64,000 bases of DNA from Bacteroidales bacterium. GTDB taxonomy: Bacteria > Bacteroidota > Bacteroidia > Bacteroidales > VadinHA17. Below are positions 38,260 through 63,016 of this stretch, one piece after another. Position 1 is the first letter of the stretch; every line of letters starts with the position of its first letter. A program made the translations under genes and the position numbers. Under the pieces are notes generated by a model, which was not told the DNA's origin, did not search any database, and saw only the letters and a list, made by a program, of their open reading frames with translations. The DNA lies in assembly GCA_025454815.1 (NCBI GenBank), contig JALONR010000022.1:35643-99642 (forward strand), written 5' to 3'.

Positions 38260-39150
38260 TCACAGGCTGTCTGCCCATTCCGCCAGTCCGGCCGGAGAGC
38301 AGACAGCTTTCGTTTTGCCGTTGCTCCAGGTGCCGCTGGTATCATACCTTCCCAGTACAAGCACCTTCTTAAGGTCTAGTTCCCTTGCCATCTCGCTGCA
38401 AAATCCCTTAACCTCATCATCAGGCTCTGATGCAGGGAGGTTAAGTGCGAGGACGGTAAACGGCCTCACAGAGTGAATCCCGCGGATATCTTCCGCCGAG
38501 AGGGTTCCTTCAGTGTAAACCACTTCAAATCCTCTCTTCCTCAGAAGGTATTTAAGAAAGACAAGGTTGTTTTCGCTCTCAGAGTCGCCGAGGTTGATTA
38601 TGGCCGCATTCTTACCCTTTGCCGTGGCTTCGTGCGACATATCCTCTGAAATGAGGATTGTCCGGATTACATGCCTGATAAACTGCTCCTGCGGTTTTGA
38701 AATGCAGTCTGTCAGCCAGAGTGCCCTTGCCTTCTGCATGAGTGGATGGAACACCTGCAGGTAGGCATCTGCCAATCCTTTCTCCCTGACATACTGGCTG
38801 AGCTTTTCCCTGAATTCTTCCTCGCTGAACCGCAATGCTGACATGATCAGCTCTCCCGGTTTGAAGGTTCCGTCACTTCCCTCGTCCCCCGTACCTGTTC
38901 TCAACACCTCGCGCAACAGTTCGCTGTCGCTCAGACGGGCGATCTTTGAGATCTTCATCCCGTTCCGGTTCAGGATTGACACGGTAATGAGCTTTTTAAG
39001 CTCCTCCTCTGTATAGTGCCTTATGTTCGAATCGCTCCGTTCAGGTGTCAGGATCCCGTACCTTTTCTCCCACATTCTTATGGTATGTGCTTTTATACCA
39101 CAGAAATTCTCCAGATCCTTTATGGAGTATGTCCTGCTTCCTGCATTCAT
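38260..39150 (-). CDS. MerR family regulator with degenerate cobalamin-binding domain (CarH/LitR-like)
   Basis: The ATG start at 39150 (MNAGSRTYSIKDLE) gives 296 residues. The N-terminal MerR winged helix reads YSIKDLENFCGIKAHTIRMWEKRYG. The C-terminal half has the layout of the CarH/LitR B12 photoreceptors: a four-helix bundle, then a Rossmann-like domain. However, the bundle motif Wx9EH reads W-x9-EQ (LWLTDCISKPQEQ), and the expected DxHxxG in the Rossmann part is replaced by SENNLV. It therefore probably does not bind cobalamin in the usual way and may act as a repressor without light sensing. A dyad overlaps its start region. Confidence 0.82.
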   Translation of the reverse strand: MNAGSRTYSIKDLENFCGIKAHTIRMWEKRYGILTPERSDSNIRHYTEEELKKLITVSILNRNGMKISKIARLSDSELLREVLRTGTGDEGSDGTFKPGELIMSALRFSEEEFREKLSQYVREKGLADAYLQVFHPLMQKARALWLTDCISKPQEQFIRHVIRTILISEDMSHEATAKGKNAAIINLGDSESENNLVFLKYLLRKRGFEVVYTEGTLSAEDIRGIHSVRPFTVLALNLPASEPDDEVKGFCSEMARELDLKKVLVLGRYDTSGTWSNGKTKAVCSPAGLAEWADSL

Positions 39151-39154
39151 CTCT

Positions 39155-39189
39155 CTCAATGTTACTTACTCACAGACTATAACAATGAG
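39155..39189. promoter_or_regulatory. Dyad at the MerR gene start, possible operator
   Basis: CTCAATGTTA (39155-39164) and TAACAATGAG (39180-39189) form an inverted repeat with 9 of 10 positions matching and a 15-base spacer. It sits directly upstream of the MerR ATG at 39150, where an autoregulatory site would be expected. Confidence 0.45.
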
Positions 39190-39529
39190 AATGTATAAAT
39201 GTTTAGCGTTATTTCATCAAGGTCATTCCCGGTGTGCCGGTAATCAATACCCACAATGGGTTCCGGCATCATTTCATTTGCTGTCAGGCATATATTTCAT
39301 GAAACTTGCATGTCTGCTCAAAAGGTATGGAGCCTGCCGGGGGTTTCCCTCAGGGATTGCATATCCCGGTCAGGAGCTTATGGCCCGGGGACCTTTTGGC
39401 CGGGATTCCGGATCACGGTCAAATGACTCAAAGCTCACCCGGATGGCCCTCCTTTATAGCTCCAAATTCCTAAAAAACAGCTTTAACATAATGCAAAAAA
39501 GTAGTAAATTCGCAGTTCATTGGATTTTG
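39190..39529. other. Intergenic region before the sigma-54 activator
   Basis: About 340 bp with no convincing gene. The ORF track runs through it only because the frame happens to stay open. It holds a weak promoter-like pair, TTTA (39482-39485), a 19-base spacer and TAAATTCG (39505-39512), which would start RNA just before ATG 39530. Confidence 0.45.
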
Positions 39530-40774
39530 ATGAAGGACTTACAGAGCGTAAAGCAGAGGTTTGGGATAATTGGAAATCACGAGGGTCTGAACAGGGCTAT
39601 TGACATAGCGGTTCAGGTTGCACCCACTGATCTCTCCGTGCTCATAACCGGAGAGAGCGGGACGGGCAAGGAAGTCTTTCCGCAGGTGATACATACACAC
39701 AGCCTTCGCAAGCACGGGCCCTACATAGCAGTGAACTGCGGGGCTATACCCGAGGGTACCATAGACTCGGAACTATTTGGTCATGAAAAGGGTGCGTTTA
39801 CCGGTGCGACTGACAGCCGGAAAGGATACTTCGAGGTAGCAAACGGCGGATCAATCTTCCTCGATGAGGTGGCTGAGCTCCCTCTCTCCACACAGGTGAG
39901 GCTCCTCAGGGTGCTGGAAACGGGCGAATTCATCAGGGTTGGATCATCAAAGGTCCAGAAGACCGATGTGAGGGTTATAGCTGCAACCAATGTCGATATA
40001 GTACAGGCAGTCAGTTCGGGGAGGTTCCGTGAGGACCTCTTTTACAGGCTGAACACTGTGCCGATACGTGTGCCGTCACTGCGTGAAAGAGGTGAAGACA
40101 TCATCCTCCTCTTCCGCAAATTCGCAGTCGATTTTGCCGAACGGTACCGTATGCCGGCAATAAGACCTGACCACCAGGCCAGGGAGATGCTCATAAGCTA
40201 TTACTGGCCAGGCAACGTAAGGCAACTCAAGAATATCACCGAACAGATATCCGTGATAGAACAGGAACGTGACGTAACAGCTGAAATGCTTGCACGTTAC
40301 CTGCCTGATATACAAAGCGGACGGCTTCCCGTTCCGGTCAGGACTTTCCCCGAGGAGAAGAGTTTCAGCAGTGAGCGGGAGATCCTGTACAAGGTTCTTT
40401 TCGATATGAAAAGCGATATGCATGATCTGAAAAACCTTGTGTACGATCTCCTCAGTACCGGTGATCCGGACAACCTGACCGAAAGCGGAGCCAGGGCCGT
40501 TCGTAACCTGTTCAACCAGGGAACCCTTCACAAGGATACCTTTGAGCAGGTGCCGCCGGTTAAGGTCAGCTACGGCACTTCGAGGGAGGCCAGGGTGATT
40601 GAAGACACCGAGGAGGTTATTGAGGAATCGCTATCCCTGACTGACCGCGAAAAGGAACTTATCATAAAGGCTCTCGACAAGAACAACGGGAAGCGAAAGC
40701 TTGCGGCAGCAGAACTGGGGATCTCCGAAAGAACCCTTTACAGGAAAATAAAGGAATACGGACTCGATGCATAA
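39530..40774 (+). CDS. Sigma-54-dependent activator, AAA+ and Fis-type HTH, no receiver domain
   Basis: ATG 39530 (MKDLQSVKQRFGII) gives 414 residues; the 169 codons before it in the track lack any domain. The AAA+ domain has Walker A GESGTGKE near residue 41, the sigma-54 contact loop GAFTGA near 88, and Walker B SIFLDEV near 107. The C-terminus is a Fis-type helix-turn-helix (KRKLAAAELGISERTLYRKIK). Without a receiver, its control must come through another protein or by abundance. It needs RpoN, which is not encoded in the window. It overlaps lptE by 8 bp, so an LPS-export gene is translationally linked to a sigma-54 regulator. Confidence 0.9.
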   Translation: MKDLQSVKQRFGIIGNHEGLNRAIDIAVQVAPTDLSVLITGESGTGKEVFPQVIHTHSLRKHGPYIAVNCGAIPEGTIDSELFGHEKGAFTGATDSRKGYFEVANGGSIFLDEVAELPLSTQVRLLRVLETGEFIRVGSSKVQKTDVRVIAATNVDIVQAVSSGRFREDLFYRLNTVPIRVPSLRERGEDIILLFRKFAVDFAERYRMPAIRPDHQAREMLISYYWPGNVRQLKNITEQISVIEQERDVTAEMLARYLPDIQSGRLPVPVRTFPEEKSFSSEREILYKVLFDMKSDMHDLKNLVYDLLSTGDPDNLTESGARAVRNLFNQGTLHKDTFEQVPPVKVSYGTSREARVIEDTEEVIEESLSLTDREKELIIKALDKNNGKRKLAAAELGISERTLYRKIKEYGLDA

Positions 40775-50124: not shown

Positions 50125-50153
50125 TTGCAAATAAAGAAATTATGTTAACTTAG
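50125..50153 (+). promoter_or_regulatory. Promoter-like pair after lepA
   Basis: TTG (50125-50127), an 18-base spacer and TAACTTAG (50146-50153) differ from the consensus at one -7 base. It would start RNA near 50160, just after lepA. Confidence 0.4.
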
Positions 50154-50159
50154 CACCTC

Positions 50160-50258
50160 GTTGGGCTTTGACGGGAAGATAATCATACTAGTCGAAAGAC
50201 CCTGAAACTAACCTAGACTCATACCCCGTGCGGATCACTTCGTACGGGGTATTTATTT
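50160..50258 (+). ncRNA. Candidate small RNA between lepA and the response regulator
   Basis: The plus strand here folds into two stems joined by a linker. Stem 1 pairs GGGCTTTGAC (50163-50172) with GTCGAAAGACCC (50191-50202), with two single-base bulges. The terminator stem starts at 50221. The linker UGAAACUAACCUAGACUC (50203-50220) stays single-stranded. The segment 50199-50215 is complementary to 52806-52822, on the other side of the two-component genes. There is no ORF on the plus strand. The terminator may simply serve lepA, in which case this is its 3' UTR. Confidence 0.4.
50221..50258 (+). terminator. Terminator after lepA / candidate RNA
   Basis: ATACCCCGTGCG and CGTACGGGGTAT form a 12-bp stem with one G-U pair and an 8-base loop, followed by TTATTT. 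Confidence 0.8.
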
Positions 50259-50271
50259 CACCGGCCCCGGT

Positions 50272-50958
50272 TCAGCAGAGCAGCTTGTATCCCTTGCCAT
50301 GTATGTTGAGAATTTCCACCTTCTCATCCTTGCTCAGGTATTTGCGAAGCTTGGTGATATAAACGTCCATACTCCTGGCATTGAAGTAATTGTCATCTAT
50401 CCAGATCGATTTAAGGGCGAAGTTGCGTTCAAGCACCTCATTCCGGTGCCGGCACAGCAGCTCAAGCAGCTCTGACTCCTTGGTGGTGAGCTTACGCGAT
50501 TGATCATTGAAAGTGAGGAGCTGTTTTGTCACATCAAATGTGAATCTGCCAATTGTATAGGAATCAACCGGTGCATCTGCGGTCCTGCGGGAAGAACGCC
50601 TGAGAATAGCCTCGATGCGGTAAATAAGCTCTTCCATTGAGAACGGTTTTGTCAGGTAGTCATCGGCTCCTGACTTAAACCCCTCTATTACATCTTCCTT
50701 CAGATTTTTCGCTGTCAGGAAGATAATGGGAATGTGGGGGTCAATCTCCCTGATATTTCTTGCAAGTGAGAAACCGTCAAGCTCCGGCATCATAACGTCG
50801 AGAAGACATAGATGAAACTTCTCTTTCCTGAAGAGCTCCTTCGCCTTTGCTCCGTCAGTGACCAGAGTGGTTTCATACTCCCTTGCTGCGAGATAATTCT
50901 TCAGAAGCTGCCCCAGATTCGGATCGTCCTCTGCAAGCAGGATGCTAACCTTTTTCAT
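50272..50958 (-). CDS. rprY: Two-component response regulator, RprY-like (OmpR/PhoB type)
   Basis: The 228-residue protein has a receiver domain (ILLAEDDPNLGQLL, phospho-Asp in CLLDVMMPELDG near residue 54, Lys in YLTKPFS near 103) and a winged-helix DNA-binding domain (RKLTTKESELLELLCRHRNEV). It resembles RprY of Bacteroides fragilis in layout and pairing. The symbol is by resemblance only. It lies 90 bp after the kinase gene on the same strand. The targets are not readable here. Confidence 0.8.
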   Translation of the reverse strand: MKKVSILLAEDDPNLGQLLKNYLAAREYETTLVTDGAKAKELFRKEKFHLCLLDVMMPELDGFSLARNIREIDPHIPIIFLTAKNLKEDVIEGFKSGADDYLTKPFSMEELIYRIEAILRRSSRRTADAPVDSYTIGRFTFDVTKQLLTFNDQSRKLTTKESELLELLCRHRNEVLERNFALKSIWIDDNYFNARSMDVYITKLRKYLSKDEKVEILNIHGKGYKLLC

Positions 50959-51048
50959 TCGCTTTTCAATTTATATGTTACTGGCATGAATGGGCCCGCA
51001 TAGGATAGTTTCATAAAGTCTTTTCGTGCTCCTTTTCTCATGCAAATC

Positions 51049-52587
51049 TCATTTTGGCTGTTCTTTCGGAAGATGAATGATTACCCTTGTTCCCTTGCCG
51101 GTCTGGCTTTCAACCTTGATGGTTCCGAAGTGTTCTTCCGTTATCTTTTTCACATAGCTGAGTCCCAGGCCGAAACCTTTTATATTGTGTGTGTTGCCTG
51201 AAGGGACGCGGTAAAATTTCTCGAAGATCTGTTTCTGATGCTCACGCGGGATACCGATGCCGTTGTCAGACACCGTTATGACAATTCCCCTGTGCCAGGC
51301 TGCCGTTGACACTGTTATTTCAGGTGTTGTCACGGAATATTTGAGGGCATTGTCTATGAGGTTGAGGAGGACATTGAAAAAGTTTGTCTCGTCAAGTGTG
51401 ACTATGGGGTCAGAGGCATCCAGGAAGGTGGAGATGGTTCCACCCCTTCCGTTTACCTGTAGTTTAAATGCATCTACGGCCCTCAGGATTATGGCATGCA
51501 GGTCAGTGGGCTGTTTGTTGAGTTCAAGTTTTCCCTTCTCGAAGATGGCTGTCTGAAGGACTCTTTCCACCAGCACCTTCAGCCTGTTGCTCTCCTCGCT
51601 GATTACTGTTGCAAGGCCGGTTGCATTCCGGGCGCTCTCCGGGATGGTTTTGTCTGTCAGCATCTGCGATGCCAGTGAGATTGTGGCAATAGGAGTCTTG
51701 AGCTCATGTGTCATGTTGTTGATGAAGTCACTCCTTATCTCTGACAGCCTCTTCTGGCGGAAGATGACAATGAAGGTGCCGGTTGAAAGCAGGATAAGCA
51801 GCAGCACGATCAGCATCGATGAGATGGCCATAAAGGCTATCTGGCTGAACTTATACTCCTCTTCCTTTGGGAAATAGATGGTAAGGATATTGTTTCCCGG
51901 GACCGGGTCATTGGGAAACAACTGCCTCAGGTACTTATTGGCGATACCGCTCTCTGAATAACCGGTTGTGCGATAGATTATGTCTCCGTAGGCTCCCCTA
52001 ACCGCACACTCATAGTCAAGGTGAATACCTACCGCATCAAGTGATTTCCTGATATGGTTGTTCAGCTCATCATGGGTGAAGCGGTCACGCAGGGGAGGTG
52101 TTTCATGAAGTATCCGGCTGACTATATTCTCAATGGAGACGATCTTGCTTGTCATTCGGGTTGTGGCTCCTGCAGAGAGGATCTGTTCATCGGGCTCGCT
52201 GTTCTCAAAGAATTCCTCCACACCCAGGCTGTCGGAATCGAGAAGGTATGTATACCCGGCCCTGCTGATTATAACTGACCTGACATCAGGATCAAAGCCG
52301 TACCTCTCCAGCAGCTTGGCTTCAGCAGCCTGCTGGCCTGTCATTGCTTCATTCTCTCCATTACCGGCAGGAACCTGTGCGGGACTGATTTCACTCATGA
52401 TCCGGTTGTAGGTCTCAGCTTTTTCAAGTTCGGACACCACCTCTTTCAGGGCTTCATTTACCCCGAACCTGAACTGTTGGTCTTCTGCACTTACAACATT
52501 GTTGATCCACCTGAACTGGATGATCACCAGGGCTGATATGGCCAGGAAAAAAAATACTGCAAGAAGTACAATGTAAGAGCGCTTCAT
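51049..52587 (-). CDS. rprX: Sensor histidine kinase, RprX-like
   Basis: The 512-residue kinase has two membrane helices (residues ~5-27, and FMAISSMLIVLLLILLSTG near 252-270) around a ~220-residue periplasmic sensor with no named domain. The phospho-His lies in MTHELKTPIATISLASQ (about residue 293). ATP-site motifs are LIDNALKYS, DNGIGIP and GFGLGLSYV. It precedes its regulator gene. A -7-like TATTTTTG lies 10 bases before its ATG, so the mRNA leader may be very short. Confidence 0.85.
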   Translation of the reverse strand: MKRSYIVLLAVFFFLAISALVIIQFRWINNVVSAEDQQFRFGVNEALKEVVSELEKAETYNRIMSEISPAQVPAGNGENEAMTGQQAAEAKLLERYGFDPDVRSVIISRAGYTYLLDSDSLGVEEFFENSEPDEQILSAGATTRMTSKIVSIENIVSRILHETPPLRDRFTHDELNNHIRKSLDAVGIHLDYECAVRGAYGDIIYRTTGYSESGIANKYLRQLFPNDPVPGNNILTIYFPKEEEYKFSQIAFMAISSMLIVLLLILLSTGTFIVIFRQKRLSEIRSDFINNMTHELKTPIATISLASQMLTDKTIPESARNATGLATVISEESNRLKVLVERVLQTAIFEKGKLELNKQPTDLHAIILRAVDAFKLQVNGRGGTISTFLDASDPIVTLDETNFFNVLLNLIDNALKYSVTTPEITVSTAAWHRGIVITVSDNGIGIPREHQKQIFEKFYRVPSGNTHNIKGFGLGLSYVKKITEEHFGTIKVESQTGKGTRVIIHLPKEQPK

Positions 52588-52760
52588 GATGTAACAAAAA
52601 TAGTCTCTTAAAACCTTAATACATAGCCCTGCCCCAACCTATTTTCCATACTTTTATCATGATACAAAATAAAACAATACTAAAAAAATGTTAAAAATCA
52701 ATATATTAACATATCCTTAAGGAAGAGATCCCGATTTTTTTCTGATATTTGCATCAGTTA

Positions 52761-52776
52761 TGGCACGATAATTGTA
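52761..52776 (+). promoter_or_regulatory. Sigma-54-like promoter
   Basis: TGGCACG-ATAA-TTGTA matches the -24/-12 form TGGCACG-N4-TTGCW at every position but one: the C of the -12 GC is T. Spacing is exact. It would start RNA near 52786. The window encodes a sigma-54 activator at 39.5 kb. Confidence 0.45.
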
Positions 52777-52785
52777 ATAACATAA

Positions 52786-52870
52786 AAGGAGTTTTTTTCA
52801 TAGGTTAGGTTAGTTTTAGGGTTAACACTGAAGAGGAGGCGAGAAATTGTCTCCTCTTTCTCTTGTTTAC
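52786..52870 (+). ncRNA. Candidate small RNA upstream of the sensor kinase
   Basis: After the sigma-54-like element comes an unstructured A/G/T stretch with the repeat TAGGTTAGGTTAGTTTTAGG (52801-52820), then a terminator. The segment 52806-52822 is complementary, with one G-U pair, to 50199-50215. There is no plus-strand ORF with a ribosome site. The layout, antisense-type segment plus terminator, is that of a bacterial base-pairing RNA. Confidence 0.4.
52831..52870 (+). terminator. Terminator with GAAA tetraloop
   Basis: AAGAGGAGGCGA and TTGTCTCCTCTT form a 12-bp stem with two G-U pairs closed by GAAA, followed by TCTCTTGTTT. Only the plus strand gives a T-rich tail, so a plus-strand transcript is expected although both flanking genes are on minus. 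Confidence 0.7.
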
Positions 52871-60592: not shown

Positions 60593-63016
60593 CTAATAAG
60601 CCGGAATAAACAGCGCGGAAAATGATCCGTCTGAAAGGTTTTCCACATCTTCAGCTCCTGCCGGCACGTGTGTCCAGTGATATCCGACAATGTAATAATT
60701 ATAAGTTCCTGCACTTGTGATCGGAGCGACTGTATTGACTGCACAGGGAGAAGAGTAATAACCGCCTACCAGCTGGTTTGTTAATCTCCACCAGGTCTCT
60801 GCCAATACGCCACCTGTCGGTCTGGTTGCAATGCCTACTCCCGCCCAGGTATAGTCCAGGTAATCATGATTAGTTGATATTTCCGCTGTAAAATACAGCA
60901 TCACAAAGCCCGGCCCTGGAGCCACAACGACGATAGTATCTATAGGTCCCCATGAATCCTGAGCTGTAATTGTCCGGTTATATGTAAAACGTTCGTGAAA
61001 AACCCTGGGACTATTTGTGATTTTCACCGCATCGGCAAAGAGTGTATCTTCAACGTGAGCGCTGCCTTTCACCAAAAACTGGCCTCCCTCGAAATATCCG
61101 GAATATCCGGTTGCAGAGGTCACTCTTCCGTAAACACCTCTGCCTGTCGCTGCGTTCGAGAAACCATACACTCCCTGGTTGGAGCCTTCTCCCCATACAC
61201 CGGTGCTGCTGGTATTTATGGCGATTCCGTAGACCCCTATGCTGGCGGTGCCTGTGGCTTCACCTGCCACACCACGTCCCTGGTTTCCCGATGCAATTCC
61301 ATAAGCTCCGTATCTCGGTGATCTACCATATAGTCCATATCCTGTCGCCGACATGGATTCACCGTAAACTCCGTTGTTTGAAACAGTTGTCGGGGTTGCC
61401 ACTCCGCGGATCGCAGATAATCCGGCTGTAGCTACGTCCTGAACAACATGAAGACGGTCAGCCGGGGTAAGTGTGCCTATACCAACCCTTTTGGTTGCAT
61501 TATCGAATATGATCCAGGTTTCGTCACCGTAATGCCCGAAGGTTATGTCTTCGGTTGTCAGCATGCTCAGGTCTTCCGCTACCAGCCGTAAGTCTCCTCC
61601 CGTTAAGCCTGTAATCCTGGTAGCATCACTTCCGAAGTATATACTTGAAAGGAGGTTCAATCCAATATTACCACCGACATTGAGTTTTCCAAGCCGGCTG
61701 ACACTTCCCAACTGCACACTGTCGGTTGTTGTACTTAACCGTATGATCGTCCCGTCATCGGTCCACCCGCTGCTGCTGCCGCCTGTTGCATCAGCCGCCG
61801 GCGCCCATGTGGTTCCGTTCCACTTTAAAACCTGTCCGTTGGTGGCCGACTGCTGGGCTACTTTCAGCGGAGTAGCCGTGGTTCCGTTTCCTGTCAGTGT
61901 TGCGTCTGTTACAACAGTTTGAGTTCCCCAGTTATCTCCTCCTCCGGATGAGGGCAAGGTCACTGATCCTCCTCCACTGCTTAATGAAAGGGTTGTCCCG
62001 CTCAGGTTTAATGTTTGTATTTCATTGATAATGCTGTTATCCGCATCGTCTATATTATCGATCCCGTCAGCAAATCCTGCCGGTACGCCCTGGATTCTGG
62101 TCCAGGAGGGAGTGATGACGGTGTTTGCTACTGCCAGCGGACTGGCTGTCGTACCTGCACCGGAGAGGGTGGTGTTGGTTACCACAGTCTGGGTTCCCCA
62201 GTTATCACCCCCTCCTGATGATGGAAGCGTAACGGTGCCACCTCCGTTGCTCAGTGTAAGAAGAGTACCACTTAAGCTCAATACCTGTAACTCATTTGTT
62301 ATACTTCCGTCTGCATCAGTTATTCCATACCCTGACAGTGTGGTAGGTTTTCCTGCAAGGCTTGTCCAGGTACCATCAAACAGTGTTGGTTTGTTCAACA
62401 GATCGTTGTAACTGCCGCTGAACAGGGTGGGTTTGTTTAACAGATCATTATAGCTGCCTGTTGTGGCAACTGTGGCAAACATCGGTTTGCCGGTAAGTGA
62501 GCTCCATGTACCATCAAATAGAACAGGCTTATTGGATAAATCATTATAGCTTCCGCTGAATAGCACAGGCTTATTTACAAGGTCATTATAACTTCCGCTG
62601 AAACCGTTGGCTGCTGTCTTTGCATATAGGGCATACGGTACACTTAACAGCTGGCTCGTCCCGGTTATGTTATAATTTGTTCCTCCTGAAGGGTCAGTCT
62701 CCGTCTTCAGGAAAAATGGTCCATCAGACCAGTCAATACCTGCAAAGGTCCCCAATGTGGCTGTTCCACCTCCTATTTCAACGGTAACAAGACCGTTGGC
62801 ATTTGTTTGAGGATTTGGACTGTAAGTCTCGGAAAAAACTACCGTCCCCGTAGCTGAACCCTTTATGATACTGATCTTCATGCCGACAGCCTGGTTAGTT
62901 ACCAGAGCACCAGCCGGGTTGCGGACAACACACTGATAGCTCATCTTCTGAGGTGATTGAGCACAAACAGTTATAGTAAGTGCTGTGATCACCATAAGAG
63001 TAAATAGATTTTTCAT
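60593..63016 (-). CDS. Large exported repeat protein, tail-fibre-like
   Basis: The 807-residue protein has a signal peptide (MKNLFTLMVITALTITVCAQ). Residues ~20-120 form a beta-rich domain ending VPYALYAKTA, common at the front of such Bacteroidota proteins. Five or more SGSYNDLxNKPxLF-type units follow, as seen in phage tail fibres, then two long GGGDNWGTQTVVT units. Next come GVYGES/YGLYGRS/YGAYGIA repeats, and a C-terminal all-beta domain (RVFHERFTYNRTITAQDSWG) that resembles a C1q/TNF-like fold only loosely. There is no type IX sorting domain at its own end. It lies 6 bp after a gene that has one. It is probably a surface fibre or adhesin; the function is inference. Confidence 0.55.
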   Translation of the reverse strand: MKNLFTLMVITALTITVCAQSPQKMSYQCVVRNPAGALVTNQAVGMKISIIKGSATGTVVFSETYSPNPQTNANGLVTVEIGGGTATLGTFAGIDWSDGPFFLKTETDPSGGTNYNITGTSQLLSVPYALYAKTAANGFSGSYNDLVNKPVLFSGSYNDLSNKPVLFDGTWSSLTGKPMFATVATTGSYNDLLNKPTLFSGSYNDLLNKPTLFDGTWTSLAGKPTTLSGYGITDADGSITNELQVLSLSGTLLTLSNGGGTVTLPSSGGGDNWGTQTVVTNTTLSGAGTTASPLAVANTVITPSWTRIQGVPAGFADGIDNIDDADNSIINEIQTLNLSGTTLSLSSGGGSVTLPSSGGGDNWGTQTVVTDATLTGNGTTATPLKVAQQSATNGQVLKWNGTTWAPAADATGGSSSGWTDDGTIIRLSTTTDSVQLGSVSRLGKLNVGGNIGLNLLSSIYFGSDATRITGLTGGDLRLVAEDLSMLTTEDITFGHYGDETWIIFDNATKRVGIGTLTPADRLHVVQDVATAGLSAIRGVATPTTVSNNGVYGESMSATGYGLYGRSPRYGAYGIASGNQGRGVAGEATGTASIGVYGIAINTSSTGVWGEGSNQGVYGFSNAATGRGVYGRVTSATGYSGYFEGGQFLVKGSAHVEDTLFADAVKITNSPRVFHERFTYNRTITAQDSWGPIDTIVVVAPGPGFVMLYFTAEISTNHDYLDYTWAGVGIATRPTGGVLAETWWRLTNQLVGGYYSSPCAVNTVAPITSAGTYNYYIVGYHWTHVPAGAEDVENLSDGSFSALFIPAY

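Follow-up and report, generated by a model that had tools for sequence, protein, structure and literature searches.

A FopS-like small RNA and a candidate decoy RNA on either side of rprXY-like genes in an uncultured Bacteroidales family

FopS sRNAs of Bacteroides thetaiotaomicron have been shown experimentally to pair with the start regions of susC mRNAs and to block their translation, and they are bound by RbpB (PMC11697453); FopS-type control has been described for the Bacteroidaceae, where the sRNAs occur in many copies with sigmaABfr promoters. In the window analysed here (the whole stretch of DNA, 64,000 nucleotides in length) two short elements flank a pair of rprXY-like genes, and we consider it rather probable that they are best explained as a FopS-like sRNA (element 2) and a target-mimic decoy, or sponge, directed against it (element 1). 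A wider proposal, held with about even confidence, is that they represent a family-wide, vertically inherited sRNA/anti-sRNA pair in the Bacteroidales, in which a FopS-like RNA repressing the synthesis of outer-membrane transporters, and possibly controlled by RprXY or sigma54, would be buffered by a co-evolving target-mimic RNA across rprXY. Searches of the open literature found no report of a matched sRNA and decoy in the Bacteroidota; a dedicated decoy, if the proposal is true, would be the first sRNA sponge proposed in this phylum as far as the literature searched shows.

Sponges and decoys reportedly act in enterobacteria, where AgvB and SroC are said to do so for GcvB and the chbBC decoy for ChiX, with 3'ETS-leuZ as a further case. 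Like them, element 1 would be a non-coding RNA that mimics targets and is almost perfectly complementary to a seed; these known cases come from Proteobacteria and for the most part depend on Hfq or are processed out of other transcripts, whereas element 1 belongs to the Bacteroidota, has a promoter-like box of its own and lies across rprXY from its partner. Two-component systems may also be coupled to a co-regulated sRNA acting on the outer membrane, as with OmpR and MicF, OmrA and OmrB, or CpxR and CpxQ. The locus resembles these in that a putative sRNA against outer-membrane protein mRNAs adjoins an OmpR-type regulator and has a common upstream region with it, but differs in that control of element 2 by RprY is a possibility drawn from position only.

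Two elements with complementary segments flanking rprXY

The two elements lie 2.6 kb apart with rprXY between them, both on the strand opposite to the kinase and regulator genes (Table 1). The gene order purN/acpP-fabF-rnc-IPExxxVDY-rprXY-lepA is kept through much of the family and so is the position of element 2, with the 5' end of rprX on one side and the IPExxxVDY-rnc-fabF-acpP block on the other. On the plus strand no gene follows element 1, rprY being convergent.

Table 1. Features of the rprXY-like locus (positions in the window)
Feature	Position	Strand	Basis and remarks
Promoter-like pair of boxes, element 1	50125..50153	+	TTG at 50125-50127, 18 nt, TAACTTAG at 50146-50153; Bacteroidota sigmaABfr type
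Element 1, candidate decoy (sponge) RNA	about 50158..50260	+	Conservation in 14 members of the genus; ends placed by means of the promoter-like boxes and terminator
Anti-seed (target mimic) ACCCTGAAACTAACCTA	50199..50215	+	Complement of 52806-52822
Intrinsic terminator, element 1	50221..50252	+	Both sides of five stem pairs vary within the genus
rprY-like response regulator	50272..50958	-	NF051850, 353.9 bits, under the cut-off of 370; PF00072, PF00486
rprX-like sensor histidine kinase	51049..52587	-	PF00512, PF02518
Upstream site of element 2, TGGCACGATAATTGT	52761..52775	+	Sigma54-like -24/-12, T for C at -12
Element 2, FopS-like sRNA gene	about 52786..52866	+	RF04319, full model, 29.9 bits, below the gathering score of 56; 5' end inferred
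Seed region of element 2, CATAGGTTAGGTTAGTTTTAGGG	52799..52821	+	Identical in 28 aligned loci of two genera
Intrinsic terminator, element 2	52830..52859	+	Present in every genus, sequence changing

The anti-seed pairs with part of the seed region of element 2 with one G-U wobble, and each segment is situated directly 5' of a plus-strand terminator-like hairpin. These two 17-nt segments, their position just before intrinsic terminators and their orientation opposite to the kinase and regulator had been claimed in a preliminary description of the sequence, and all hold exactly. Within one mismatch of the 17-mer only these two sites occur in the window, and 100 dinucleotide shuffles of the window gave no match, so that chance would not be expected to produce any there. 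Genome-wide (3.6 Mb) an exact CCTRAAACTAACCTA is found at the two element loci only; allowing up to two mismatches there are 4 forward and 4 reverse occurrences, similar to the 5 and 3 of a backwards control pattern. The duplex of the two elements has a predicted energy of -36.5 kcal/mol. In the predicted fold of element 1 ACCC lies in the first stem and UGAAACUAACCUAGACUCA is unpaired, in agreement with the earlier view that the segment overlaps a single-stranded linker, the paired part being the ACCC end only.

Both genes are conserved, non-coding in appearance and terminator-ended; the complementarity between them is likewise conserved and has no second instance in the genome. We infer that both are transcribed, that their RNAs form a duplex and that control is directed from element 1 to element 2.

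Element 2 and the FopS family

Element 2 is the best match to RF04319 (FopS) in the genome; the other matches (L055-L059) resemble the antisense of gene starts or terminators and were rejected. Like FopS/GibS it is a short RNA with an unstructured 5' seed carrying UUUUUCAU(A/G)G ... GGUUA and a terminator directly after it, and its seed is complementary to start regions, with SusC-like targets predicted (PMC11697453). Classical FopS loci in a scan of named genomes showed the same layout of UUUUUCAU(A/G)G, GGUUA and terminator, together with a UAUUAGAUUUAAGG seed and a sigmaABfr promoter directly upstream. By comparison, the seed of element 2 reads UAGGUUAGGUUAGUUUUAGGG; relative to the FopS R1/R1' seed UUUUUCAURGUAUUAGAUUUAAGG it has UUUUUCAUAG and GGUUA in common but differs in the middle. 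Element 2 is also a single copy at a fixed syntenic place as opposed to the 12-15 copies of FopS, no other convincing match being present in this genome, where one weak further candidate was seen (L082); and instead of TAnnTTTG at 4-5 nt before the FopS-like 5' end it has a GGCACG-N4-TTG site. Given that a plain RF04319 assignment fails on score, seed, copy number and promoter, we have not filed element 2 as FopS, although on present evidence it would work like FopS. It would represent a place-fixed relative with a different seed throughout an uncultured Bacteroidales family.

The weak candidate, around position 60737 of G000:C14 in the same genome, comes after a gene and consists of CAGGTTAGTTTTGGGTTAGGTTGAGAAG and then a strong terminator; it is possibly a further sRNA. 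In Bacteroides sp. SpSt-1244 and SpSt-1230 (L127 and L185) we observed seeds between the FopS and element 2 types (AUAGAUUUAGUUUUAGGGUUAG / TTTTCATAGATTTAGTTTTAGGGTTAG) with no obvious sigmaABfr promoter. FopS-like candidates made up of TTTTTTCATAG, a lineage-specific seed and a terminator were also seen elsewhere in the class, in different families and orders (L099-L101 and L104), which suggests that the FopS type is wider than the Bacteroidaceae.

The region of element 2 is approximately 90-97% identical in most members of the genus and its core is kept through much of the family. Across 28 aligned loci from two genera the seed is identical while the sequence of the terminator is freely replaced; RNAalifold returned no common fold over the two genera because the terminators differ, and folding predicts a weak alternative pairing within the 5' portion. 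The same conservation could in principle belong to the minus strand, as a leader peptide or as the start region of rprXY, since that strand reads as a start region (CTAACCTAACCTATGAAAAAAA). This is hardly credible: the U-run before CAUAGG varies from 6 to 8, so that the corresponding A-run breaks the antisense ATGAAAAAA frame, which is non-coding; codons after the start-like sequence are not conserved; and the U-rich hairpin tail is on the plus strand.

Taking element 2 as a plus-strand sRNA, the reverse complement of its seed, CCCTAAAACTAACCTAACCTATGAAAAAAA, resembles the start region of an exported protein of this phylum. Start codons accounted for 7 of the 100 strongest duplexes predicted in 464 kb of the genome, against 0-2 for seven dinucleotide-shuffled sRNAs. 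When 331 start regions from these stretches were ranked by complementarity, all four SusC-like genes were placed in the top 19 (P = 0.0006), a predictive statistic that rests on four genes; a perfect long target of the extended seed was found at no gene start in the genome. On this ranking the start regions of SusC-like mRNAs are putative targets. Element 2 would be a trans-acting FopS-like sRNA, transcribed divergently from rprXY, whose unstructured 5' region UUUUUUUCAUAGGUUAGGUUAGUUUUAGGG would pair with initiation regions on the mRNAs of exported proteins and of SusC-like outer-membrane proteins and so lessen their translation.

Element 1 as a candidate decoy

Because element 2 is FopS-like and its predicted target spectrum resembles start codons, element 1 has the appearance of a target-mimic decoy. 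Element 1 would be a separate non-coding RNA of about 100 nt, transcribed from its own promoter downstream of lepA, in which a start-region mimic without a start codon is held between a short stem and a terminator; by pairing with the seed of element 2 it would titrate this sRNA. It gave nothing near threshold in Rfam, and the sole possible tiny ORF within it was rejected as it is not conserved. Among 393 genomes of the order, matches beyond the family were weak and confined to tRNAs and terminators.

The element begins some 55 nt past the stop codon of lepA and has a terminator at its end, and CTAACC-type sequence is common before start codons; it could therefore be the lepA 3' UTR with its terminator and nothing else, with complementarity as a by-product of leader-like sequence common in the phylum. 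We regard this as unlikely. Between the stop codon and element 1 the TTG and TAnCTTAGC boxes are invariant in 14 genus members, the -7 box having one mismatch to the Bacteroidota sigmaABfr type, and with rprY convergent and no plus-strand gene following, element 1 cannot serve as a leader. Further, the anti-seed is its most conserved part: the longest invariant run in the alignment of the 14 genomes, at 15 columns, falls in the block complementary to element 2 and was not equalled in 20000 column shuffles. Outside element 1 the genome matches the anti-seed exactly at element 2 and nowhere else, and in sister genera it recurs on one strand only. The conserved promoter-like box and anti-seed thus count against the 3' UTR alternative that the preliminary description had itself raised.

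A block this constant might also be kept for an RNA-binding protein (e.g. an RbpB homologue) or as a DNA site, the pairing being incidental. The binding of RbpB to FopS RNAs in B. thetaiotaomicron means that shared sequence context could matter (PMC11697453), and an invariant G gives a wobble and not a perfect pair. This reading is quite improbable, as the block is the complement of the seed and not a copy of it, has a bipartite match to the seed in several genera and, in genus g8, shifts together with it.

Conservation of the pair and control of element 2

In the lepA-rprY gap of sister genera we found a homologous element composed of a TAnnTTAG-type box, at the same place as the promoter-like box of element 1, then AAYCCU...AUCUAACCUAAGC and a terminator. 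The anti-seed of these genera is bipartite and their duplex has an internal loop. CTAACCT occurred in 16 of 25 such gaps (shuffles: mean 0.42, maximum 4) and in none of the 25 on the other strand. Predicted duplex energies of own pairs were stronger than with shuffled partners, with an approximate mean z of -2.8 for the loci of genus g1 and a mean z of -0.9 (P = 0.0002) for 25 other loci, P-values which overstate independence as the loci are related; over six genera the own pairing ranked 16th of 720 permutations. Complementarity to the seed of one sRNA, as expected of a sponge or decoy, is conserved, strongly in g1 and more weakly in some sister genera.

In the preliminary description, change in one segment without matching change in the other was to count against the pairing. 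In this respect the result is mixed: in G021 (g8) seed and partner have both changed and give the best mutual fit, at -30.2 kcal/mol, but g10 and g15 fit less well, some swapped pairs being stronger than their own. Many members of the family have no element 1, and in several lineages the gap has gone, and element 1 with it, while element 2 is unchanged; this is in keeping with element 1 being an accessory that regulates element 2, rather than the other way round.

The comparative data support two real small RNA genes with conserved mutual pairing, but not the role that the preliminary description suggested for the duplex, namely that it may couple transcription to the left and right of rprXY and could be cleaved by RNase III. 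Both RNAs do flank rprXY, rnc lies approximately 0.5 kb away, and RNase III could act on a long duplex; we nevertheless find this very improbable. As the gene order is kept through much of the family, rnc is found there even without element 1 and its closeness is no evidence of a role; the sister-genus duplex is interrupted by its internal loop, and no sequence feature ties the duplex to transcription.

Variation in the sRNA itself was seen in two further genera. Homologues of element 2 in genus g7 (L261, L262, L270, L271 and L327) have a shortened seed, CATAGGTAGGTTAG, and are without any GGCACG-N4-TTG site. In genus g15 (L263, L264, L265 and L269) a second FopS-like sRNA candidate with the seed CATAACTTAGGTTTTAGGGTTAG and its own terminator stands in tandem after element 2, between rprX and the IPExxxVDY gene.

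The sequence TTGGCAYG-N4-TTG is located at a near-constant distance from element 2 in g1, g8, g10, g13, g14 and g15. By comparison with the sigma54 sequence YTGGCACG-N4-TTGC, the C at -12 is mostly A or T; other near-consensus sigma54 sites in the genome are mostly inside genes. Of 117 genomes of the family 106 have a detected rpoN, and the site persists in at least nine where rpoN was not detected; as sigma54 activators were present in all eight such genomes that were tested, the absence of rpoN may be an assembly gap. A sister genus has a TAnnTTTG box 7 nt further upstream, from which the start of the RNA would be earlier. Control of element 2 by sigma54 is possible on the basis of this site, and the interval common with rprXY would allow control by RprY as a further possibility; the RprY literature searched gives no binding motif, and we know of no RprY site. 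The proposal, if true, would provide a testable link between envelope sensing by RprXY and the choice of transporter.

A sigma54-dependent activator of the NtrC type (Sigma54_activat) is encoded in the window at 39023-40774 on the plus strand, and in several genomes of the family a homologue lies at a distance of 9-13 kb from element 2.
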